This document shows, in pieces, positions 1-25,206 of a DNA stretch of 25,206 bases. Every line of letters starts with the position of its first letter. The first letter of the stretch is position 1. The stretch is from a virus: the IMG/VR virus record IMGVR_UViG_3300025164_000297, positions 1-25,206 of that record, one strand, 5' to 3'. Under the pieces are notes generated by a model that was not told the DNA's origin, did not search any database, and was given only the letters and a program-made list of their open reading frames with translations. A program made the translations under genes and the position numbers.

Positions 1-99
1 CACATAACTAATTGAAATTATTAAAAAAAGTTTTCTATAGGGGGGTGCTCAATTAACTATATGTAATCATTGAATAAAGTTGAATATTGGTTGTTTTCT
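1..99. repeat. Terminal direct repeat, left copy
   Basis: Bases 1-99 are identical to bases 25108-25206. A 99-bp exact overlap at the two ends is what a de Bruijn assembler emits for a closed cycle, so the biological unit is probably a 25,107-bp circle or a circularly permuted molecule. A true short terminal repeat on a linear phage genome is the less likely alternative. Confidence 0.95.
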
Positions 100-139
100 T
101 AATAATTTCAATGACTTACAAATCCTTTCCCTTTCCGCG
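83..139 (+). repeat. Large inverted repeat, left arm (outer 57 bp)
   Basis: Bases 83-139 are the reverse complement of 460-516 with one mismatch (base 103). The symmetry continues inward less perfectly. Bases 171-186 (GCGCGCGTATAACGTA) pair perfectly with 414-429, and the T15 tract at 201-215 faces the A11 tract at 390-400. The whole dyad is about 430 bp with a loop of roughly 175 bp. It could act as an origin structure, a recombination site or a packaging-related site. Confidence 0.9.
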
Positions 140-288
140 ACGCGTTGGGCATCTGCTCTCTACTCCATAGGCGCGCGTATAACGTACGTACGGGAAACAA
201 TTTTTTTTTTTTTTTAAGAGTACGTGCGCCCGACCGACTAACAACTTCACAAACAGTTGATTCCATTGAATCTTATTAGAACAAGCTT

Positions 289-310
289 CAACCAATATTC
301 AACCAATATT
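289..310 (+). repeat. Tandem iteron-like repeat CAACCAATATT x2
   Basis: CAACCAATATT occurs twice back to back (289-299, 300-310) in the loop of the large dyad. It occurs again at 506-516 and inverted at 83-93. A second motif, ATTGAAATTATTA, is at 11-23 and 319-331, inverted at 100-112, and with one change at 486-498. Recurrence of two AT-rich motifs in both orientations resembles initiator-binding iterons. No cognate initiator is encoded here. Confidence 0.6.
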
Positions 311-407
311 TATAACTCATTGAAATTATTATCTTTTTAAGCCAAATATTAGAACTATTAGAATTATTAGATGAAACCAAAAATAAAATAAAAAAAAAAA
401 TCCTTCC

Positions 408-426
408 CGCGTATACGTTATACGCG
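408..426. repeat. Perfect CpG-rich hairpin
   Basis: An 8-bp stem (CGCGTATA / TATACGCG) closes on a 3-base loop inside the right arm of the large inverted repeat. The corresponding place in the left arm holds the self-complementary CGTACGTACG (183-192). Both arms thus keep a local dyad although the primary sequence has drifted. Confidence 0.65.
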
Positions 427-459
427 CGCCCGCTACCCTACAGAGGGCAGTCTCCAACG

Positions 460-516
460 CGCGGAAAGGGAAAGGATTTGTAAGTCATTGAAATCATTAA
501 GAAAACAACCAATATT
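460..516 (-). repeat. Large inverted repeat, right arm (outer 57 bp)
   Basis: This is the reverse complement of 83-139 with one mismatch. Near identity over 57 bp in non-coding DNA implies recent duplication with inversion, or active maintenance by recombination or function. The inner part of the arm (about 390-459) has diverged more from its partner, with small insertions and deletions, but keeps the CpG-rich core. Confidence 0.9.
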
Positions 517-521
517 TGGGA

Positions 522-556
522 TTTTGCTCTCTGTACTCTATGGAGTAGAGGGTATG
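522..556 (+). repeat. Outer inverted repeat, copy A
   Basis: This stretch begins TTTTGCTCT and contains TGTACTCTATGG. It matches the reverse complement of 25025-25058 with a few substitutions and a one-base gap. It abuts the right arm of the large dyad and includes a small hairpin at 535-548 (TACTC / GAGTA). On the circle the pair flanks the origin-like region. Confidence 0.65.
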
Positions 557-603: not shown

Positions 604-640
604 ACCTTAAACAAAGCCCTTAAACTTGACTTTGTTTAAG
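604..640 (-). terminator. Rho-independent-like terminator of the late operon
   Basis: A perfect 12-bp stem, CCTTAAACAAAG (604-615) against CTTTGTTTAAGG (629-640), closes on a 13-base loop. Read on the minus strand it lies about 65 bp past the last gene and is followed by TTTTAAATTATAAATT, a U-rich but interrupted tail. The position is as expected for ending the single long minus-strand operon before it reaches the control region. Confidence 0.75.
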
Positions 641-676
641 GGGTATATAAAGCCCTGGGTTAAAGTATAAAGTACA

Positions 677-1255: not shown

Positions 1256-1484
1256 CAACTGCCTCTTTGCCTTTGAATGCTCCAACTATGATATCCCCTC
1301 GGTTCACACCATATAAAGCAATCAAAAGGCCAACCACTTGTATAGGTATATCAGGGATGACTTCTGTTTTCCATGTTATATATGAACCCCACATAATATA
1401 AAATCCAATCAATGCTAATGTTACCAACCTTGTCATTGATAGATTGTGACGCTCATCCTCCAAAAACTCAATTATACGCTTCAT
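1236..1484 (-). CDS. Holin-like small membrane protein
   Basis: The product has 82 residues: a charged N-terminus, two predicted membrane segments (about 19-37 and 45-61) and a charged, lysine-rich tail. This is the size and topology of two-span phage holins, which permeabilise the inner membrane and release the endolysin. Its ATG at 1484 overlaps the endopeptidase TGA (TGATG) and has GGAGG six bases upstream, so translational coupling is likely. A TTG at 1499 in the same frame is less likely as start. The assignment rests on topology and the endolysin neighbour, not on a recognised holin family. Confidence 0.65.
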   Translation of the reverse strand: MKRIIEFLEDERHNLSMTRLVTLALIGFYIMWGSYITWKTEVIPDIPIQVVGLLIALYGVNRGDIIVGAFKGKEAVDDTKKI

Positions 1485-1954
1485 CAGTAACCTCCACAAT
1501 ACTGGAAGTGCATGGGGTCACCAAAATCTCCACCCCAAATGAATCCAAAATCTCTGAATATAGCAACTATCTCTGGATTCATGTCACCTTTGGTGCCCAT
1601 CTGATTAGTATCTATATTCAAATCAATGGCTATGCCCCAAGCATGAGTACTGAGTTTACTGGATGACCGCTTCACCCTAAAATTATAGCAGCCACCAAAA
1701 GTCTTGATTAGATGGGCAAAGCCTCTTGCCTCTATAGTTTTAAATACCCCTATAAATGTGTCAGCCAAGGCTTTATGGCATCTCATTTTGGTGGTATGCA
1801 TAGGCATCCAACTTAGTTGTATGGGGAAAGGCAATTGTATAGTAGTTACGAATGTGGCCTCTTCAGCAGGGGTGAGGATTCCATCTATGGCCATGAATGG
1901 TATATTGCCAAAGGTCTTGATTATTTCTGGGAGTCCAGTTGGTCTTTTAACCAT
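1484..1954 (-). CDS. Endolysin, peptidase M15 family (D-Ala/L-Ala-D-Glu carboxypeptidase type)
   Basis: The product has 156 residues and is predicted to be a zinc peptidase that cuts the peptide stem of peptidoglycan at lysis. The M15 signature is clear. STHAWGIAIDLN at 102-113 gives the zinc ligands H104 and D111. WGGDFGDPMHFQ at 140-151 gives the catalytic acid (probably D146) and third ligand H149. There is no signal peptide or membrane segment, so release should depend on the holin encoded next. ATG at 1954 follows GGGGTGATAAT, a usable ribosome site. Family assignment is firm; the exact bond cut (VanY-like or CwlK/Ply500-like) is not determined. Confidence 0.92.
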   Translation of the reverse strand: MVKRPTGLPEIIKTFGNIPFMAIDGILTPAEEATFVTTIQLPFPIQLSWMPMHTTKMRCHKALADTFIGVFKTIEARGFAHLIKTFGGCYNFRVKRSSSKLSTHAWGIAIDLNIDTNQMGTKGDMNPEIVAIFRDFGFIWGGDFGDPMHFQYCGGY

Positions 1955-12230: not shown

Positions 12231-12289
12231 TGAAATACCCCTTTAAAATGTTACCCTTGAGGGTTACTACCTTTTTTTATTAAAGTCTT

Positions 12290-12319
12290 AAATTCACCCT
12301 ATCCTTGGCCCTTGAATCA
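12290..12319 (-). repeat. 30-bp direct repeat, copy in 12231-12323 spacer
   Basis: This is the identical partner of 677-706. It lies just after the stop of the small tail gene at 12324-12674, in the longest gap between the tape measure and the fibre genes. On the minus strand CCTTGATTCAAGG at its edge is a near-perfect hairpin. It could be a leaky terminator, an RNA-processing site or a recombination linker; no clear promoter boxes accompany it. Confidence 0.85.
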
Positions 12320-12323
12320 AGGT

Positions 12324-12674
12324 TCAAATTACCTTTTCCTTGACCAAAAAGTTAAAAGTAATGATATTGTTGTTCTGGTTTAAAAAATCTATCACCCCTT
12401 TGAATATTCCCTCGGAAGTGGTGATGCAAATGCTTGGATAGAGTTCTATCATCTGAGCCAAAATGCCTATTTTATCATCAGAAAGTGAGCTTGATGAAAC
12501 TTTAAAAACTCGGTCTGAATGGGAAAGTCCATTGTCTTCTATAGAACACCCACCATCAAGGGTTGCAATCCTTGACACACGCCTTGTCCTGCTTATAATA
12601 TCTGTGCCTGGGTCATAATCCATTATGACCAAAGCTCCTTCCAAATCATATGTTGGTGTAGAAAGTGCTATCAT
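12324..12674 (-). CDS. Small tail protein downstream of tape measure
   Basis: The product has 116 residues. The pattern DYDPGTDIISRTRRVSRIAT, then LDGGCSIEDNG and FNFLVKEK near the end, resembles a small conserved protein often encoded just after the tape measure in siphophage tail modules. The function of that family is not established. ATG at 12674 overlaps the tape-measure stop (TAATG), which couples its translation to it. Probably a tail-tip or tape-measure partner. Confidence 0.7.
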   Translation of the reverse strand: MIALSTPTYDLEGALVIMDYDPGTDIISRTRRVSRIATLDGGCSIEDNGLSHSDRVFKVSSSSLSDDKIGILAQMIELYPSICITTSEGIFKGVIDFLNQNNNIITFNFLVKEKVI

Positions 12675-15184
12675 TATAACCCCAATAAGAACTCTGCCCC
12701 ATCAGCATTGGCTCTGACCTGAATTCTTTTTAAAATTTGCCACATAAATGCCTCAATCTCTGGTTCTAAACCATCTGCTGATATATTGATTAAAGCCTCT
12801 CCTGTTCGTATAGCCTGTGATTTCATGGCCATATACTCAATCTGTGCTTCAATCAACTTTTCCTGCAAATCAAATTCCTTTTGCCTCAACTCTTGCTCTT
12901 TTTCTATGGCTTCAAGTAATGCTTGCTGCCCAAAAGGTGTAGTGGATGCTTGACCCATCAACCCAAATAAACCAACTAATGTCTCACCTGTGCTTGATAT
13001 ACCATCATCAATAGAGGTAAACATGGTTTCAAATGCTTTACTTGTAGCTTCAATTTGTGCTAAATCCACTTTTGTTTGCATCTCAAATATTGAAACTCTT
13101 TCCTTGCTTTGTATCTCTTCCAGACCAAGCTTAAATTTTATCATTTGGTCAACTTGCTTTGCTAATTCAGCAGCAGCATTCTTATTAGCCTCAGTATTTT
13201 TTTTGGTTCCTTCTGTAACCCCAGCAAGTGCCTCAGTTGTTTCCCCCAATGCCACATAATTATCATTAAATACAGCAATCCCATCCTCTGTGACCTCTAC
13301 AAATGATTTGAGCCCTTCAACACCTTCTTTGGCAGCATTACCTATTTTACCAGTGTTATTTGCTGCTTCTTCAGCATTTATACTGAAATTATCAGCACTA
13401 TCAGCACAACTATTAAGGGCAAGCTGAAGTGGGTCAAGTGCTAATCCCAACCCTGTCATGGAGTCTTTTGCTTTATCCCCACCATCTTTAACTTTGTTAC
13501 CAGTCTTTTCCCCATCTTCACCAAGTCTATTGATAGCTTCATCAACAACTATTATTGAATTTGCAACATTATCAGACCAATATTCAAATGGGGCAGTTGC
13601 TGTGACATCATCAATTATCACCTTACTCAAATTCTCAGCTGATTGTCCAAGCTTCTCAATTGGCCCAGATAAATCCATACCTGGGATGAGGTTGAGCCCC
13701 TCTAAAACAGTTAACAAAGCCAATTCTACCAATAACAATGGGGCATTTAATGCTGTATTAACAATATTCTTTAACCCATTGATGGTATTACCTATCCCAG
13801 CAAACCCATCATGCACTAATGCTACTGATAATACAAGCCCTTGAATGATTGTATTTGCTGTGGTTAATACATCCTTGATGGTATCAATATCTCCAGCCCA
13901 CTTAGCAAAATCCACAGCAGCAGAAGCTCCTTCAATCCCTGAAAGCTCTGAATATATGGTTTGAATATTATCCACAAATACTACTAAGTTGCTGACCCAA
14001 TTAGCAATGACCTCTCCCAATGCTTCAGCAATTGCTACCCCTTCTTCACTTGTGAGGGCTTTAACTAAGGAGTCAAGGATTGGTTTAACTTCTTCAAGGA
14101 TAGATGACCCTGCCACAGTTAAAAATGCATCCCATGATGTTTTTAACTGCTGAACTTTAAACTCAGCAGACCCCATCCTGATTTCAACCTCTTTCATGGC
14201 AGAGCCAGCAGAGTTCATTCCAACTGCTGTTATCTCTATGGACTTACTAAGCCCATCAAATACCTCTACCATTTTGCCAGCTTGATGTAATCCTACAAGC
14301 TCTGTTGCTAAATATAGTTTATCATTCTCATCAACCGTCTTAAATGCTATTGCTACCTCATTTAAAATATCCTTACCTGATTTGAGATGACCATTAGCAT
14401 CCTTTTGTGATACTCCAATCCCAGCTAATGCTGTTGCTACCTCGTCTGAGTCATCCAATAGTTTTAACAAACCAGTTTTCAATGCTGTGGCTGCCTCATC
14501 ACCAGACCTGAAAATCTCTATAACTGGGGTTAATAACCCAGCAGTTTCAGCAAATGAAAAGCCCATAGTGCTGGCAATAGGTGATATTGATGCCATACCT
14601 ATAGCCAATTGTTGGACATCAGTGGCATATCTATTGGATACTTCATTAAGAATATCAACTACTTCAGCAGCATCTGTGGCAGGGGCTTTAAAGCCTTTGA
14701 GGATTGAGACCAAATATTCAGATGCTTCAGCAGCAGCAATATCTCCAGCAATGGACAGATTCAAAGCATCTGTCTGGAGTTGTAAAGATTCAGCAACATC
14801 AAACCCAGCCTGTTTGAAATTTGCAACACCTTGAACTATCTCTGTTGTTGATTTGCCATAATTTATGGCCATTTGAAGGAATGTCTCAGAGTATTGAGAC
14901 ACACTCCCCTCTGAATCATCCATAACTTTCTGAAGGTCAAGAAGTGCAGATTCATATTCAGCAGCACTTACAACTGCTAAAGTAGCAAAAGTGGTTGCTA
15001 TAGCTGTGACAGCAAGGCCAAGCAAGGCTATATCTTCAACCAAACCTTTGGCCCTGCCACCAAGCCCACCAAATGATGAGTCCACAGTGCCAATAGACTT
15101 GTCAATATCACTCATTACTGATGTAGCATCATCAGTTGCAGTGAATATCAACTCTATAATCTTGGTTATATCACTTGTTGCCAT
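12674..15184 (-). CDS. Tail tape measure protein, TP901/PhageMin_Tail type
   Basis: The product has 836 residues and is predicted to set tail length and to be the scaffold on which the tube polymerises. Helical heptad-like N-terminal region, hydrophobic segment at about 48-75 (LLGLAVTAIATTFATLAVVS), then the TP901-type core with TEIVQGVANFKQAGFD and QLAIGMASISPIASTMGFSF at about 115-225. A second hydrophobic stretch lies near 480-500 and a charged coiled coil near the C-terminus. At about 0.15 nm per residue the tail would be about 125 nm. AGGAG precedes the ATG. The frameshifted chaperone extension overlaps its start by 14 bases. Confidence 0.92.
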   Translation of the reverse strand: MATSDITKIIELIFTATDDATSVMSDIDKSIGTVDSSFGGLGGRAKGLVEDIALLGLAVTAIATTFATLAVVSAAEYESALLDLQKVMDDSEGSVSQYSETFLQMAINYGKSTTEIVQGVANFKQAGFDVAESLQLQTDALNLSIAGDIAAAEASEYLVSILKGFKAPATDAAEVVDILNEVSNRYATDVQQLAIGMASISPIASTMGFSFAETAGLLTPVIEIFRSGDEAATALKTGLLKLLDDSDEVATALAGIGVSQKDANGHLKSGKDILNEVAIAFKTVDENDKLYLATELVGLHQAGKMVEVFDGLSKSIEITAVGMNSAGSAMKEVEIRMGSAEFKVQQLKTSWDAFLTVAGSSILEEVKPILDSLVKALTSEEGVAIAEALGEVIANWVSNLVVFVDNIQTIYSELSGIEGASAAVDFAKWAGDIDTIKDVLTTANTIIQGLVLSVALVHDGFAGIGNTINGLKNIVNTALNAPLLLVELALLTVLEGLNLIPGMDLSGPIEKLGQSAENLSKVIIDDVTATAPFEYWSDNVANSIIVVDEAINRLGEDGEKTGNKVKDGGDKAKDSMTGLGLALDPLQLALNSCADSADNFSINAEEAANNTGKIGNAAKEGVEGLKSFVEVTEDGIAVFNDNYVALGETTEALAGVTEGTKKNTEANKNAAAELAKQVDQMIKFKLGLEEIQSKERVSIFEMQTKVDLAQIEATSKAFETMFTSIDDGISSTGETLVGLFGLMGQASTTPFGQQALLEAIEKEQELRQKEFDLQEKLIEAQIEYMAMKSQAIRTGEALINISADGLEPEIEAFMWQILKRIQVRANADGAEFLLGL

Positions 15185-18939: not shown

Positions 18940-18973
18940 ATCCTGATGATGGTAATATTACCATCATCAGGAT
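18940..18973. promoter_or_regulatory. 34-bp perfect palindrome after capsid gene
   Basis: ATCCTGATGATGG is followed by TAATATTA and then CCATCATCAGGAT, with no mismatch, starting seven bases past the capsid stop. In RNA it gives a 13-bp stem with the AT-rich centre as loop. No T-run follows, so it is probably a leaky terminator or a 3' stabiliser that raises capsid mRNA over downstream genes. Its centre also contains TAATATTAC. Confidence 0.8.
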
Positions 18974-18979
18974 TAGTGA

Positions 18980-20158
18980 TTATAACTGGACTGAAGAGGC
19001 ATCATTGACCAGACAGAAGCTCTCTGGATGCCTGAGGCCACAATCAACCTCCTGAACAACCCTTATCCAGGTCTGATTCTTCTGAAATGCATCTGAGGTC
19101 TCATTAGAGGCCATGATTTCCAGACCACCCCACTGGCCAATGAGCAACTCCTGCCAGTTTGCAAAGATTATCTCAGACAGAGCCACACCTGAGGCTTTGG
19201 TAAGGTTAGTTGGTATCTGACTGGATGTCCCAAAGTCATACCCCATAACATCCTTGAGCTTTGCATCACTCAAGAATGGGATTCCAAGAATGGGTTCACC
19301 ATCAGTCTGACCACTGTACTGTGCTACCTTGATATTCTTGAGCAGCCTCTTGACCTTTCCGTGCCAAGCAAACCCAAGCTTTCCTCTCAAGGCATTTACA
19401 TCCTCAAGCATCCCTTCCATCTCAGATGCTGTGTTGAAGGTGAACATACCACCATTGGTGCCTATCTCCACATTCTGGATGCCTGGAGTATTCACTATCC
19501 CCAATGGCTGATTGGAAGTCCCAGAGCCACGCAGGGCAGCAAGGTCAAGGGCAAGGCTCAATGACTGAGCTATATCCCTTCTAATCATGGCTTCTGCAGC
19601 AGGGCTGGAAAACTTCAGCAGCCTGTTGGATACCTTTACCAAAGCAGCAACCTGATGAGGGGACATGGTTAGCTGACCAAGAGTCTGCTGAGATGGTGTT
19701 ATATCAGTGTTCTCACCAACCCAAAATGCAGTTGCTCCACCTACCTGCTTTGGAAACTCCACAGGGTTGCCCTTGAGGTCATTGATAACTGTGGCCCCAA
19801 GTTTCACAACTATAGCCTCTGCCACCAGCATCTCAATAAGCTCTGCTACATATTCTGTTGGAACTATGTAGCCACCATCTGCTGGTGTACCTGCCCCAAG
19901 TGCCTTCTTGCGGGTCTCATCAAACACTTCTTTCTCAAACCCAGCATTGCCCCACTGACCTGTCCTTATGGCCTCTGCTGCCTTGAGGAATGAGAACTTG
20001 GTCTGTTCAACTCCAGGCAAAGACACCTTCCTTGGAGTCATCCTCTGCTCCAAGTCTTTCAACTTGGCTTCTGCATCAGCAAACTTGCCATCAATACCAG
20101 CAAACTTGCCTTCTAACATTTCCTTTTGGTCATTTAAAGCCTTTAACACTGCATCCAT
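18980..20158 (-). CDS. Major capsid protein, HK97 fold
   Basis: The product has 392 residues. An N-terminal coiled coil of about 40 residues (delta/scaffold-like) is followed by the mature capsid protein. GAGTPADGGYIVPTEY at 88-103 marks the start of the N-arm, and FPKQVGGATAFWVGENTDIT at about 144-163 is the classic E-loop region. ALDLAALRGSGTSNQPLGIV at about 210 and the final RVVQEVDCGLRHPES are also typical. GGAGG precedes the ATG. Codon choice looks richer in C/G-ending codons (CTG, ACC) than its neighbours, as expected for the most abundant protein. No separate scaffold gene is visible, so the N-terminal segment and the protease C-terminus may serve. Confidence 0.95.
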   Translation of the reverse strand: MDAVLKALNDQKEMLEGKFAGIDGKFADAEAKLKDLEQRMTPRKVSLPGVEQTKFSFLKAAEAIRTGQWGNAGFEKEVFDETRKKALGAGTPADGGYIVPTEYVAELIEMLVAEAIVVKLGATVINDLKGNPVEFPKQVGGATAFWVGENTDITPSQQTLGQLTMSPHQVAALVKVSNRLLKFSSPAAEAMIRRDIAQSLSLALDLAALRGSGTSNQPLGIVNTPGIQNVEIGTNGGMFTFNTASEMEGMLEDVNALRGKLGFAWHGKVKRLLKNIKVAQYSGQTDGEPILGIPFLSDAKLKDVMGYDFGTSSQIPTNLTKASGVALSEIIFANWQELLIGQWGGLEIMASNETSDAFQKNQTWIRVVQEVDCGLRHPESFCLVNDASSVQL

Positions 20159-20221: not shown

Positions 20222-21364
20222 CTATGCAAGAGTTTGGGAAATGTCTTTTACTCCTTGAAGAATCAATGCTATATGGTTTTCTTCTTGTTTCTGTCCTTGA
20301 TGGCCTAATTCACCCTGAATTAAGGTCTTAACCTCTTTTACAATACTTTCCCTGTCCTCAGTAGTTAAGACATAAATTTCAGGGTGCTCCTTTTGTGCTA
20401 TGAGATATATTCCGGTTAACATATCCTTGTTTCCGGTTAAAATATCCTCATCTGAGATATAGGTTTTGAATTCTGGAGCATCCTTTTTGAACTCTGCATA
20501 GTGTTTGCTGAGGTGATTGTATACCTTTTTCCTGTCTGCCTCAGGAATATCTGTGCCCCCTCTGGCTCCAAGTAGTGCAGCCATAGCAGAGGCCACACCT
20601 TTCCAATTAGTCTGAATGGCTTCCCCTACAACATCATGATGAGGCAACTTATATGCTGCCTGAGTTCCTTTGTTATCATCATCAAACCAAGCAAAGCCCT
20701 TGGCATATTTGTTGAAATCCTCACCTGAAAGGGCAAATAAACGCTTTCTTGCACCAGCCCCATCCCATTTAGCATCTTCAGGCATGAGGTCATAAGCCTT
20801 AAAGGGCACAACCCCTTTCTCTTCAGCCCAATTTATAGTACCAGCTGCATCAAGCATCCTTTGAATAATGGGGTTTGACCCTTCATCCCCTGAATCTACA
20901 CTCTTGCCAAGGGCTGAAGGGTTACATGGAACCAAAACTTGGCTTATCTCCAGCAATTCAACATCTGTGTATGTCCTTCTTACTCCTGATTCCCTATCAC
21001 CATCAACCCAAGCCTTTGGGTAAAATCCAACACTGAAGGCCACAATGCCCTTCTTAGCAAGGTTAAATGCCCAATCAGCTTCAGGGTTGCCCTCTCCCAC
21101 AAAATATTTGAACTCTACATCAAAGGAGTCACCAATCATGAGTTCCTTTGCCATCCCTATCTGGTTGAGCAATCCATAATAGTTATGGGAACTCAACAAA
21201 ATAGGGTGTTTCTTGTAGTTCTCAAGTCTGTTGACCCAAGCTGATACTTGAATAACCTCACCTGAACGGTCAATAGTCTCATCAGAGACAGTGGCCAGTA
21301 CAGTAAAATCCTTTTCATTCACACTTTTAACCTTCCCAGCAAACATCCTTACCTGTTTATCCAT
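20222..21364 (-). CDS. HK97-family prohead protease with long C-terminal region
   Basis: The product has 380 residues, about twice the size of HK97 gp4. The U35 protease core is at 1-160. ILLSSHNYYG holds the catalytic His (H60), FSVGFYPKAW the catalytic Ser (S111), and LLEISQVLVPCNPSA the closing strand. Residues about 185-300 form an added domain (WDGAGARKRLF; FAWFDDDNKG; YNHLSKHYAEF) also found in some other phage proheads. The end may have scaffold function. It is encoded one base after the portal stop with AAGGAGA as ribosome site. It should mature the capsid N-terminus and be lost from the virion. Confidence 0.9.
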   Translation of the reverse strand: MDKQVRMFAGKVKSVNEKDFTVLATVSDETIDRSGEVIQVSAWVNRLENYKKHPILLSSHNYYGLLNQIGMAKELMIGDSFDVEFKYFVGEGNPEADWAFNLAKKGIVAFSVGFYPKAWVDGDRESGVRRTYTDVELLEISQVLVPCNPSALGKSVDSGDEGSNPIIQRMLDAAGTINWAEEKGVVPFKAYDLMPEDAKWDGAGARKRLFALSGEDFNKYAKGFAWFDDDNKGTQAAYKLPHHDVVGEAIQTNWKGVASAMAALLGARGGTDIPEADRKKVYNHLSKHYAEFKKDAPEFKTYISDEDILTGNKDMLTGIYLIAQKEHPEIYVLTTEDRESIVKEVKTLIQGELGHQGQKQEENHIALILQGVKDISQTLA

Positions 21365-21365
21365 G

Positions 21366-23414
21366 TTATGTCTCCTTCACTGATATAGTTGTACACCTGC
21401 AATTTATGACCTCTTTGGCTGGGGCTGATGAGTCCCCTGGATATTTTAATGAGCTGCCTGGGAATTTATCACCTATCAAAGCCACCTTACCATGTAAACT
21501 ACTGTGTGAATCACGCACCTCTTCATCCAAAGCAGTTATCCATTTGTGTTTCTTAACCCCATTTTTCTTCATAGTTAAGAATTTACCATGGGATATTGCT
21601 GACCCAGCTTCTGTCCTTGCTATAGTTAATGCTCTGGAATGAGCCATGTTATATACATGACGCACTCTATCTGATATTTCAACAACACTCTCTCCTGCTG
21701 CTATCCCTGCTGTAATGGCTTCATCCAATTGCTTCTTGATTGTTCCCACTATCTGAGCAGGAATATTAGTCAACTTCATACTCATAGCACCAAGATAATC
21801 AGGGTCAAGTGGGACAAATTGAACTCCAGATAACCCAAGTTCATCAATGGCTATTAAGAATCCAGTCTTGATAGAAAGTTCATATATGGGCTTCATAATA
21901 TTTTCCAACATCTTGGCCTCTTCAGCAGGGTCAAATATCCCATCCGACACACCTTTGCTAAATTGAAGGTTTACTTTCCCCAATACCCTCTTGCGCTGGT
22001 CAAAAAAATATTTTTCAATCTTGGCTTTGAATAACCTTTCTACTGGGCCTTGTGATGTTAAATAACTTTTCCAAACTCTTTCACGCTCAGCATCTTCAGC
22101 AATCTTCACCAAATTTTCCAGGTCATCAAAACTCTTTGTCAAAGAGTCTATTGATTTTGCTGGTTCCTTTGGTGTTGCTTCAACAGAGGCAATAGGCACA
22201 AGATTGATAGGAGCATACCATACATCACCCCAAGACACATCTTCCATACCAAGCTCAAGCCTTTTATTGATGGCATTTATTGGCCAGCCCATCTTCTGGA
22301 GCTTCTCACCAATGTCTACCTTCTTTTCAAAATCTTCTTGAAGGGCAGAGACTGTTGATAAATCAAACTTTACCCAAACTTTGCCCCCATTAATGCTTGA
22401 AAATAGCCTTGACCAAATCTGTTCTTCCAAATAAGTTGTTTTTGGCACAAGGCACTCAGTCCAGAAGGTCTTGTGTGCTGTCTTTATGCCTTCAAATGAC
22501 TTGATATCCTCATATAAGCCCATAACTACTGAATTCACTTTGTATACTGCAAAAATCTCTTCCCTGGACAACTTCTTCATCTGAACAAAATCCATGTCCC
22601 GCTGGGTGAGTTTAGCTTCTTTGTAATCTGCTCCACCCTCTATGATGCCTACTCTATGAGCCTTGTTATATCCTTTATGTCTATTATCAAATTGTTTCTG
22701 GAGTCTATTGTATTGAGTATCTGATAACTCACCTGGAACAGTGATATACCCACCAACTGCCGCACCCTCTTGAAAGAATGTCTTGTTAAATTGGCCTGAA
22801 TAATAGTCTTGGTCTATGCTTGTCTTTGCTGCTTGTAAAGGGGCAAGCCCTCTTACATCATTATAGGGGTTAAAATATTTGAAATGTATGATTTCATGAA
22901 GGCCAAAGTCAATAGCACCAACCTTCCCTGTGTATCTCCAACCTATAACCATCCCACTGATTTGGTCTAATATGGGCATAAACCTGATAGGGTCAAAGCA
23001 CCATATCCTTGTGGGAAGTTTTGTTACATCCTCTCGGTCTTCCAATATCCAAAAGGCTTCACCCCTCAACCCCATATATATCATGGTGGCTTCAATGAGT
23101 TGTTTACCATTCATCAAAGGGTTTGGTTGGTTAAACAACTCATATTCTGGGCCTGACTCAATAGTGATTGGCTCTTTATCCTTGACTTCAGTGGTAATTT
23201 TGAGAGGGACATTAGAGATATTTTGGGATATTGCTGATATAGAAGCATAAACCCAAACACTTTGGGCATATGCCTGAGATACTTCACCAGAAATTTGGGA
23301 CATCACTGAGGATAATGACTTGAAAGTAGCATCAGCCAGTACCATATTTGGGCCAGCTATCTTTTCCACAGGTATATACCCAAGCTTTGACATTATACTT
23401 TGGATTATAGCCAT
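21366..23414 (-). CDS. Portal protein fused to MuF/SPP1-gp7-like minor head domain
   Basis: The product has 682 residues. Residues about 1-430 are an HK97-type portal: QSVWVYASISAISQNISNVP, then the GLRGEAFWILED wing, then the KLSREEIFAVYKVNSVVMGL stem region. After a charged linker, residues about 500-682 match the phage Mu F/SPP1 gp7 head morphogenesis domain, with ALTIARTEAGSAISHGKF, WITALDEEVRDSHSSLHGKV and the end NCRCTTIS. These two proteins are usually separate genes. It overlaps terL by 10 bases. The fusion places one minor head domain on each of the twelve portal subunits. Confidence 0.92.
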   Translation of the reverse strand: MAIIQSIMSKLGYIPVEKIAGPNMVLADATFKSLSSVMSQISGEVSQAYAQSVWVYASISAISQNISNVPLKITTEVKDKEPITIESGPEYELFNQPNPLMNGKQLIEATMIYMGLRGEAFWILEDREDVTKLPTRIWCFDPIRFMPILDQISGMVIGWRYTGKVGAIDFGLHEIIHFKYFNPYNDVRGLAPLQAAKTSIDQDYYSGQFNKTFFQEGAAVGGYITVPGELSDTQYNRLQKQFDNRHKGYNKAHRVGIIEGGADYKEAKLTQRDMDFVQMKKLSREEIFAVYKVNSVVMGLYEDIKSFEGIKTAHKTFWTECLVPKTTYLEEQIWSRLFSSINGGKVWVKFDLSTVSALQEDFEKKVDIGEKLQKMGWPINAINKRLELGMEDVSWGDVWYAPINLVPIASVEATPKEPAKSIDSLTKSFDDLENLVKIAEDAERERVWKSYLTSQGPVERLFKAKIEKYFFDQRKRVLGKVNLQFSKGVSDGIFDPAEEAKMLENIMKPIYELSIKTGFLIAIDELGLSGVQFVPLDPDYLGAMSMKLTNIPAQIVGTIKKQLDEAITAGIAAGESVVEISDRVRHVYNMAHSRALTIARTEAGSAISHGKFLTMKKNGVKKHKWITALDEEVRDSHSSLHGKVALIGDKFPGSSLKYPGDSSAPAKEVINCRCTTISVKET

Positions 23415-24586
23415 CTGACTTTGAACTCCTGTCTTTGTTTGAAGTGGGTATATAAGGCATACCGTTCTGCATCTAACAAATGGTCATTATACTCCACAGG
23501 TTCATCATACACAGTCCCATCTTTATCAGTCTTCCAACTATATGACCTTTTTTCTTTTATCAGATTTTCTGATGTTTTAACTATGCATATCTTTGGGAAT
23601 GATTGGACAAAATCTATCCCTTTATTCACTGCTTTATTTGCTGGGTGTATATTAAACCCTGCTTGCTTAATCTCTTGAATTCTTTGAGGCTCAGCACAAT
23701 CAGCATACAAATACTTTTTACGGTCTGGTATAAGTATTTTTAATCTGTCTATCAATTGAGAATTTGTTAATCCAGTCCTGTATAAGAGTTCTTGCTCATA
23801 AGGCACCCCATCAACCATTGATATTCTCATAAGAGCAGTGGGGTTGTTGAACCCAAAATCCAGGCCATATATGGTTTCGTCTTTCCCAAAAGGGATTGTG
23901 TCTACAGACACCCAATTTGGGTATATCAAATTATCAAGCTTTCCCCACTCACCAAGGGCATATATCCTGTGAAGATTTGGGTCTTGCTCTTCCAACCTAT
24001 TCAAGATTGATATATAATCAGCATCTAAATATGGATTATCTTTGTATGTTGACTGTATCTCAATAACATCTTCAGATGAAGCATCTACAACCTTTGTTTT
24101 CACCCAACTGAACATATCAGCAGGGTTCAAGCTCATTGTTAATTGGTTCCTGCCATCCTTATTAGCAGCACTCAACCTGAGTTTTAACTGAATAAAGTCT
24201 TCATAAGTAAACTCATTGGCCTCTTCCATCCATATCTGAGTCCATTCTGTAGACTTTATCTTTTCAGGGTCATCCACAGAACCAAAGTGAAGCCAATTAT
24301 CCTTGAAGGTGTAATCTAAACTGACCTTGGCCTCTTGTACTCTATTATGTACACCCCACTTATAAAACAAGTGTTTAAAGGTCTTCAGGGTGGATAATTT
24401 TAAAGATGGCAGTGCCTTTCTTACAACTAACAACTTTTGCTCTCTCCCCATCAAGAGAGAGTGTGTATATTTCTGGGCTATAGAATATGACTTGGAGCTT
24501 CTGGCACCACCCCTGTTGACTATTATCTGGGATTGTGCCTCCATATTCTTGAAGAATATGGAGGTTGCTTCAATCTTCTGTTCCAT
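23405..24586 (-). CDS. terL: Terminase large subunit
   Basis: The product has 393 residues and is the ATP-driven DNA packaging motor and nuclease. The ATPase shows Walker A RGGARSSKS (25-33), Walker B IWMEE (118-122) and the coupling motif MSLNPAD (151-157). The RNase H-like nuclease shows D243 in GLDFGF, D296 in LYADCAEP and D372 in DHLLDAERYA, all acids present. The sequence type is the PBSX/Terminase_3 family. ATG at 24586 overlaps terS by 17 bases; a second ATG at 24544 would remove 14 residues and still keep Walker A. Neither has a strong ribosome site, so coupling to terS is likely. Confidence 0.95.
   Translation of the reverse strand: MEQKIEATSIFFKNMEAQSQIIVNRGGARSSKSYSIAQKYTHSLLMGREQKLLVVRKALPSLKLSTLKTFKHLFYKWGVHNRVQEAKVSLDYTFKDNWLHFGSVDDPEKIKSTEWTQIWMEEANEFTYEDFIQLKLRLSAANKDGRNQLTMSLNPADMFSWVKTKVVDASSEDVIEIQSTYKDNPYLDADYISILNRLEEQDPNLHRIYALGEWGKLDNLIYPNWVSVDTIPFGKDETIYGLDFGFNNPTALMRISMVDGVPYEQELLYRTGLTNSQLIDRLKILIPDRKKYLYADCAEPQRIQEIKQAGFNIHPANKAVNKGIDFVQSFPKICIVKTSENLIKEKRSYSWKTDKDGTVYDEPVEYNDHLLDAERYALYTHFKQRQEFKVRWL
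24541..24561. repeat. Inverted repeat at the start of terL
   Basis: CCATATTCTT and AAGAATATGG are perfect 10-bp arms around a single central G, covering the second possible start codon of terL. It could form an mRNA hairpin that hides the inner start or be a binding site for the small terminase. It may also be chance within coding sequence. Confidence 0.5.
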
Positions 24587-24932
24587 CTGGAGCCTTTGCT
24601 GGAACTATAGAAATGTGGATTGGCTGGTCTGGAACCCCAGCATGCTCTTGCCGCTCGACATAACCTCTCTGCTTCCCTATGCACTTCAAAAAGAAACATA
24701 TGGCACCAAGGTTGCCTTCTTTGACCTTAGTGATTAATTTATCTTCAGCCATATCCAAATAGCTTTCATCTATGGCCTTTTTGGCTTCCGCTATCACTGG
24801 ATGCTTACTGATATAGCCAGCAACTGTGCTATAGTTGCAGCACAAGAGTTGTGCAGCACCAGACAACCTGCCACCTGCCCTGTCTAAAGCATCTATGATT
24901 TGTTCTGGTGTAAAGTGTGGATTATCACCCAT
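24570..24932 (-). CDS. terS: Terminase small subunit (probable)
   Basis: The product has 120 residues. A helix-turn-helix lies at about 8-45 (TPEQIIDALDRAGGRLSGAA, then NYSTVAGYISKHP), followed by a helical oligomerisation part and a Pro-rich tail. This is the plan of small terminases that recognise packaging sites and stimulate the large subunit. It is the first gene of the late operon and overlaps terL. GAGGT lies nine bases before the ATG. A plain transcription factor is the alternative, but the position next to terL makes terminase much more likely. Confidence 0.88.
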   Translation of the reverse strand: MGDNPHFTPEQIIDALDRAGGRLSGAAQLLCCNYSTVAGYISKHPVIAEAKKAIDESYLDMAEDKLITKVKEGNLGAICFFLKCIGKQRGYVERQEHAGVPDQPIHISIVPAKAPDGTED

Positions 24933-25024: not shown

Positions 25025-25058
25025 CATACTCCCTACCCCATAGAGTACACAGAGCAAA
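25025..25058 (-). repeat. Outer inverted repeat, copy B
   Basis: This is the inverted partner of 522-556. It lies just upstream of the late promoter, between that promoter and the left arm of the main dyad. Spacing is asymmetric: about 130 bp separate it from the left arm on the circle, while copy A touches the right arm. Confidence 0.65.
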
Positions 25059-25107
25059 AGTCAAAAAATATCAACCTGGAGCAAACCCAACCCCCTCCAG
25101 CATCTAT

Positions 25108-25206
25108 CACATAACTAATTGAAATTATTAAAAAAAGTTTTCTATAGGGGGGTGCTCAATTAACTATATGTAATCATTGAATAAAGTTGAATATTGGTTG
25201 TTTTCT
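25108..25206. repeat. Terminal direct repeat, right copy
   Basis: This is the exact second copy of bases 1-99. It ends inside the left arm of the large inverted repeat (from 83 in the left copy), so the contig was opened within the intergenic control region and not inside a gene. Confidence 0.95.

Follow-up and report, generated by a model that had tools for sequence, protein, structure and literature searches.

The window analyzed here, the whole 25,206-nucleotide stretch of the viral record IMGVR_UViG_3300025164_000297, ended in an exact 99-bp direct terminal repeat (1-99 = 25108-25206). This overlap indicated a circle, and closure gave a molecule of 25,107 bp, which is the simplest reading of the record; 99 bp is also a common assembly k-mer length. 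The same virus was also represented by another assembly, L007, which showed 100% identity over 10,448 bp (L007 1-10448) and ended at the equivalent of position 33, within the 99-bp closure overlap, without crossing the closure point. That both assemblies broke within the same 100 bp hinted that a branch, variation between strains or a physical end lies there. All predicted genes were located on the minus strand and constituted a single complete late module from TerS, the candidate terminase small subunit, to lysis. The main genes were as follows, and the module further included head-tail connector, tail and fibre-like genes.

704-24932, minus strand: late module of capsid, tail, packaging and lysis genes
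24570-24932, minus strand: TerS candidate, named by its position before TerL and by synteny, 45% identity to its counterpart in the relative G017
23405-24586, minus strand: TerL
21366-23414, minus strand: portal/head morphogenesis
20222-21364, minus strand: protease
18980-20158, minus strand: MCP
12674-15184, minus strand: tape measure
1484-1954, minus strand: endolysin

A 34-bp perfect inverted repeat at 18940-18973, downstream of the capsid gene, was probably a terminator, and a 44-bp direct repeat of 91% identity was observed at 668-711 and 12281-12324, both copies adjoining gene ends. The family scans covered nearly all genes of the minus strand (PHROGs, Pfam or NCBIfam) and eleven of the longest frames of the plus strand (Pfam); none of these scans found a replication or recombination family above chance on the circle. 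Searches for RNA families and tRNAs found none. Several genes near the lysis end had no family match, and an initiator of an unrecognised kind may therefore be among them; the majority of their predicted products were acidic, a character that does not suggest DNA binding.

The main non-coding gap of the circle contained its only strong dyad, at 83-516. The features of this gap and its surroundings were as follows.

1-99: direct terminal repeat closing the circle, containing one 20-bp box (4-23)
4-23, plus strand: 20-bp box ATAACTAATTGAAATTATTA, outside the arms
83-139, plus strand: outer left arm, 57 nt, one mismatch to 460-516
83-93, minus strand: 11-bp box CAACCAATATT, exact copy
100-119, minus strand: 20-bp box GTAAGTCATTGAAATTATTA, in the left arm
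136-236: CpG cluster, 14 of the 118 CpGs of the circle
170-186, plus strand: inner perfect block GGCGCGCGTATAACGTA, left copy, 17 bp
201-215, plus strand: T15 tract in the inner left arm
289-310, plus strand: two tandem 11-bp boxes CAACCAATATT, exact copies
305-404: AT-rich candidate unwinding element, from the nearest-neighbour profile
312-331, plus strand: 20-bp box ATAACTCATTGAAATTATTA
390-400, plus strand: A11 tract facing the T15 tract
408-463: CpG cluster, 10 CpGs
414-430, minus strand: inner perfect block GGCGCGCGTATAACGTA, right copy, 17 bp
460-516, minus strand: outer right arm, pairing with 83-139
480-499, plus strand: 20-bp box GTAAGTCATTGAAATCATTA, in the right arm
506-516, plus strand: 11-bp box CAACCAATATT, exact copy
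522-556, plus strand: inverted 89% copy of 25025-25059
617-642, minus strand: terminator-like hairpin where the late operon ends, weak (one found against a shuffle average of 1.0)
25025-25059, minus strand: 35-bp element upstream of TerS, a possible late promoter or operator region

The original prediction described a large inverted repeat whose outer arms differ at one base, and our results agreed with it: 83-139 and 460-516 (57 nt) were 98% complementary with one mismatch. The inner arms had drifted as described (170-216/384-430, 47 nt, 83% without gaps) and carried the facing T15 and A11 tracts, but their perfect match was 17 bp rather than the 16 bp claimed. A gapped alignment joined the arms over 83-216/384-516 (134 bp with indels, 82% alike overall), in which conservation was much stronger over the outer 58 columns than over the remainder (p about 8e-6, from counts made by hand from the alignment), and it was blocky, with the outer 57 bp and the inner 17 bp as its blocks. 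Within 1.5 kb, 43 exact 20-mer inverted seeds were found on the circle against 0 in 50 Markov shuffles; these came from the dyad arms, with some counted twice across the closure. The single strand of the dyad folded at z = -14. The symmetry also extended outward, as represented by the inverted copy at 522-556 of the element upstream of TerS. A fold-back chimaera was excluded since the arms differ by substitutions and indels, and a linear genome with terminal inverted repeats was excluded as well, because the arms lie inside the sequence, the outer pair 320 nt apart, and are 82% alike overall.

Two families of boxes, each in four copies, had been reported inside and at the edges of the repeat. 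The copies of CAACCAATATT were found as described, at 83 (minus), 289 (plus), 300 (plus) and 506 (plus), with no further exact copy in the circle, and an 11-mer with four copies in 600 bp occurred in 0 of 1000 shuffles. The centre of symmetry (299/300) coincided with the junction of the two central CAACCAATATT boxes, the outer copies being located 206 bp away on either side. The ATTGAAATNATTA-type motif also numbered four, at 11 (plus), 100 (minus), 319 (plus) and 487 (plus), but the copy at 11 fell outside 83-516; elsewhere in the circle ATTGAAATNATTA was absent, even when one mismatch was allowed. This motif formed the core of the 20-bp box, with copies at 4-23, 100-119, 312-331 and 480-499, whose irregular spacing and mixed orientation differed from a same-orientation tandem array.

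The 100-bp stretch with the lowest duplex stability in the circle, more than 4 s.d. from the mean in a nearest-neighbour profile (100 bp), was positioned between the arms at 305-404. Each arm contained one pair of TTGAAA/AATATT hexamers with 17-bp spacing, the two pairs facing outward, and promoter-like hits were no commoner than in shuffles (3 versus 4.5). The DnaA-like box TTATNCACA, for which the host consensus may differ, did not occur in the dyad region, its circle copies being confined to 13968 and 16924, both in coding DNA. A skew signal had been proposed as a check on the origin; the GC skew did not change sign at the dyad, fourfold-site skew included, and because all genes lie on one strand it was uninformative on the direction of replication.

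The dyad also differed from the rest of the circle in its CpG content. CpG rho was 0.12 for the circle as a whole and 0.09 when the dyad was left out, with a TG/CA excess of about 1.36, which we infer to be the expected residue of methylated-CpG deamination. At silent positions CpG reached 0.04-0.06 of expectation, and the codons for Ser, Pro, Thr and Ala included only 13 of the NCG type in all. Within the dyad, in contrast, 24 of the 118 CpGs of the circle were clustered in both arms, the other 94 being spread over the remaining roughly 24.7 kb; the other non-coding DNA of the circle contained 3 CpGs in 1032 bp. The chance of this clustering was below 1e-17 (binomial count), in a test that was devised after the sequence was seen and in a window that was chosen for the dyad and not for CpG, so that the clustering was no scan artefact. 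The CpGs of the two arms mostly corresponded in the arm alignment, and GCGC was present in six copies in the dyad, against a single copy in the rest of the circle. The dyad was either protected or selected to retain its CpGs or acquired from another genome, and the drift of its arms argues against a very recent arrival. Some distant relatives were likewise CpG-poor (L059 0.12, L048 0.17), without TG excess.

The closest relative found was a 77-kb viral contig (L043, here G017) with the late module in matching order, showing identities to the circle of 45% for TerS, 55-58% for TerL, 43% for the portal, 58% for the capsid and 32% for the tape measure. G017 carried replisome and DNA methyltransferase genes upstream of TerS and in the same orientation: a family A DNA polymerase with a uracil-glycosylase domain, a sliding clamp, a clamp loader and a DnaB-like helicase, together with a UvsX-like recombinase, SSB, SbcCD-like subunits and two DNA methyltransferase genes. 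Judged by these predicted genes, the late module is attached to a replisome in G017 and not on the circle. The G017 DNA polymerase A-uracil-DNA glycosylase fusion (L119 13012-15609) had its nearest annotated relatives in Vibrio phages of about 76 kb, and the TerL of G017 (31777-33990, L118) contained an in-frame insert of ~1 kb, possibly an intein, near the match to residue 112 of the TerL of the circle.

Searches for relatives of the dyad itself were negative within their scope. Plasmid and phage records contained no homologue of the dyad region, the weak phage hits being short AT-rich stretches. In viral contigs, the exact arm 25-mer, the tandem CAACCAATATT, the 13+11-bp box pair with its gap and the promoter element were found only in L007 and in one chance match inside a tail gene, and in genome contigs the box pair matched gene sequences only (the gene-sequence matches of the motif searches were L041 and L148-L160). 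A search for a partner via the G017 PolA yielded, beyond G017, only relatives of 21-39%, none with the motifs, and a host search with the portal protein against genome contigs yielded no match. The single-protein TerL scan missed the 58% relative, which was later found by capsid alignment, so these negative locus scans are of limited reach. Related phages without the dyad and motifs had been named as evidence against an origin. Those examined contained no comparable dyad, but since they share only about 20-60% protein identity, conservation of non-coding DNA was not expected in them, and an origin-type reading was left standing.

From these features, the stretch running from about 25025 across the closure to 560 is tentatively regarded as the cis-acting control region of the circle, in which the dyad 83-516 most likely serves as the replication origin, a reading to which we give slightly less than an even chance. 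It is drawn because the boxes, the unwinding stretch, the symmetry and the non-coding location resemble an origin and because a replicating circle needs one; the dyad, the only strong one, combines the main non-coding gap, the least stable 100 bp and both box families. The blocky conservation of its arms and the concentration of CpGs in both of them were further points in favor of an origin. Counting against it were the missing TTATNCACA box, the missing regular array, the missing skew flip and the lack of a homologue for comparison. The initiator would act in trans because no initiator gene was recognised on the circle. Supplied by a partner replicon, a helper phage or the host, it would bind the 20-bp and 11-bp boxes at the edges and the centre, the symmetric arms would draw its sites together, and the AT-rich stretch at 305-404 would then be opened, while transcription of the late operon would begin on the TerS side of the control region. 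The CpGs retained in both arms may mark positions that are bound by protein or read through methylation. The dyad is perhaps also the start of packaging or of late transcription, and the origin, terminase and promoter functions are not mutually exclusive. Since the region holds candidate promoter elements and adjoins TerS, its repeats might instead be operators or sites for the terminase. A resolution site had been suggested as well; the circle offered no recombinase gene to accompany one.

Among the other explanations, the one that survived best, though unlikely, was a terminase site (cos/pac), with TerS binding to the boxes and cleavage of the packaged genome near 1-99, upstream of TerS. Such sites are usually located on the upstream side of TerS, and here TerS starts at 24932, with the beginning of the dyad about 260 bp and the closure point about 175 bp upstream of it; a physical end could also be the cause of the breaks of the window and L007 within the same 100 bp, although strain variation can break an assembly graph too. 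The element is, however, larger and more symmetric than usual sites, and it spans the side away from TerS.

Somewhat more doubtful was an inverted duplication of a late promoter/operator, in which one outward TTGAAA-17-AATATT per arm would drive the late operon on the left and a short RNA ending near 600-640 on the right, the boxes being promoter or regulator sites. The hexamer pairs with their 17-bp spacing in both arms, the inverted recurrence of 25025-25059 at 522-556 and the terminator-like hairpin at 617-642 were consistent with such a duplication, but promoter-like hits were no commoner than in shuffles, and the centre boxes, the instability minimum and the CpG clusters were left unexplained by it.

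It is improbable that the circle is unnatural, having arisen either when the assembler closed a piece of a larger phage that carries the late module or as a deletion derivative, with the dyad near the junction. In favor of this possibility, the nearest relative detected was a 77-kb contig with replication genes, and L007 stopped short of the closure point, whereas the overlap was exactly 99 bp, a usual k-mer, as for an unbranched loop, and a repeat common to a larger genome should be expected to branch the graph. Equally improbable was a mobile or foreign, MITE-like insertion with 57-bp terminal inverted repeats that brought normal CpG content into a CpG-poor genome: the arms resembling such repeats, the non-coding core and the alien CpG content fitted it, but inspection by eye of the flanks AAGTTG/TGGGAT showed no direct repeat where the arms end, leaving no clear target-site duplication, one 20-bp box and the 35-bp element lay outside the arms, the arms had drifted by substitutions and indels yet kept their CpGs in both, and no second copy was found in the circle or the searched collections.

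The original prediction had also offered a region shared between partner replicons. The lack of any replication gene found on the circle and the full replisome of the 77-kb relative favored this idea, but no partner was detected in viral or genome contigs. In its strongest form, to which we assign a low probability, the circle would be a natural late-gene segment of a bipartite or helper-dependent tailed dsDNA phage, and the CpG-rich dyad would be a common cis region on both molecules for the initiator, and possibly the terminase, of the second replicon, CpGs being kept only there in an otherwise CpG-purged genome. The alternatives to this form are a host-replicated phage, a deletion derivative and an assembly closure.

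A tailed-phage circle that has a complete structural, packaging and lysis module but in which replication genes could not be recognised would need help for its copying. Provided that the circle is real, its replication comes from the host, from a helper or from a partner molecule, and experiments on the dyad could tell these sources apart; a tailed dsDNA phage with a segmented genome, if true, would be new. In addition, a CpG cluster limited to the likely control region of a CpG-purged genome offers a direct test of the control of phage origins by CpG marks or by bound proteins.

Among known systems, the iteron-type origins of plasmids and phages resembled the dyad region in combining several boxes of about 20 bp with an AT-rich stretch of low stability in one non-coding region. 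The circle contained four 20-bp boxes, none of them repeated elsewhere, within the 17-22 bp range of candidate initiator boxes, and an AT-rich unwinding element beside them at 305-404. It differed in that the boxes are scattered, three of them within the 434-bp dyad and one next to it, and do not share one orientation, where a regular same-orientation tandem array, DnaA boxes and a cognate Rep gene on the molecule would characterize iterons; no Rep gene was found on the circle and no DnaA-like box in the region. Phage cos/pac sites were alike as non-coding repeats upstream of, and here adjacent to, the terminase small subunit gene, but differed in size, dyad symmetry and CpG clusters, the dyad being a candidate terminase site. 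MITEs shared with it the terminal inverted repeats and the non-coding core, but not the target-site duplication or the further copies in the same or other genomes. Herpesvirus oriL and SV40 ori are symmetric viral origins, and the dyad was like them in its inverted boxes around AT-rich DNA with possible divergent promoters flanking; with no homologous initiator and with unrelated hosts and virus lineages, the comparison concerns only the way of working. Bipartite genomes of the begomovirus type have common regions. Unlike in these systems, no partner was found for the circle among viral and genome contigs; the likeness consists in a non-coding region acting in cis, through which a replicon lacking an initiator of its own could be served in trans.
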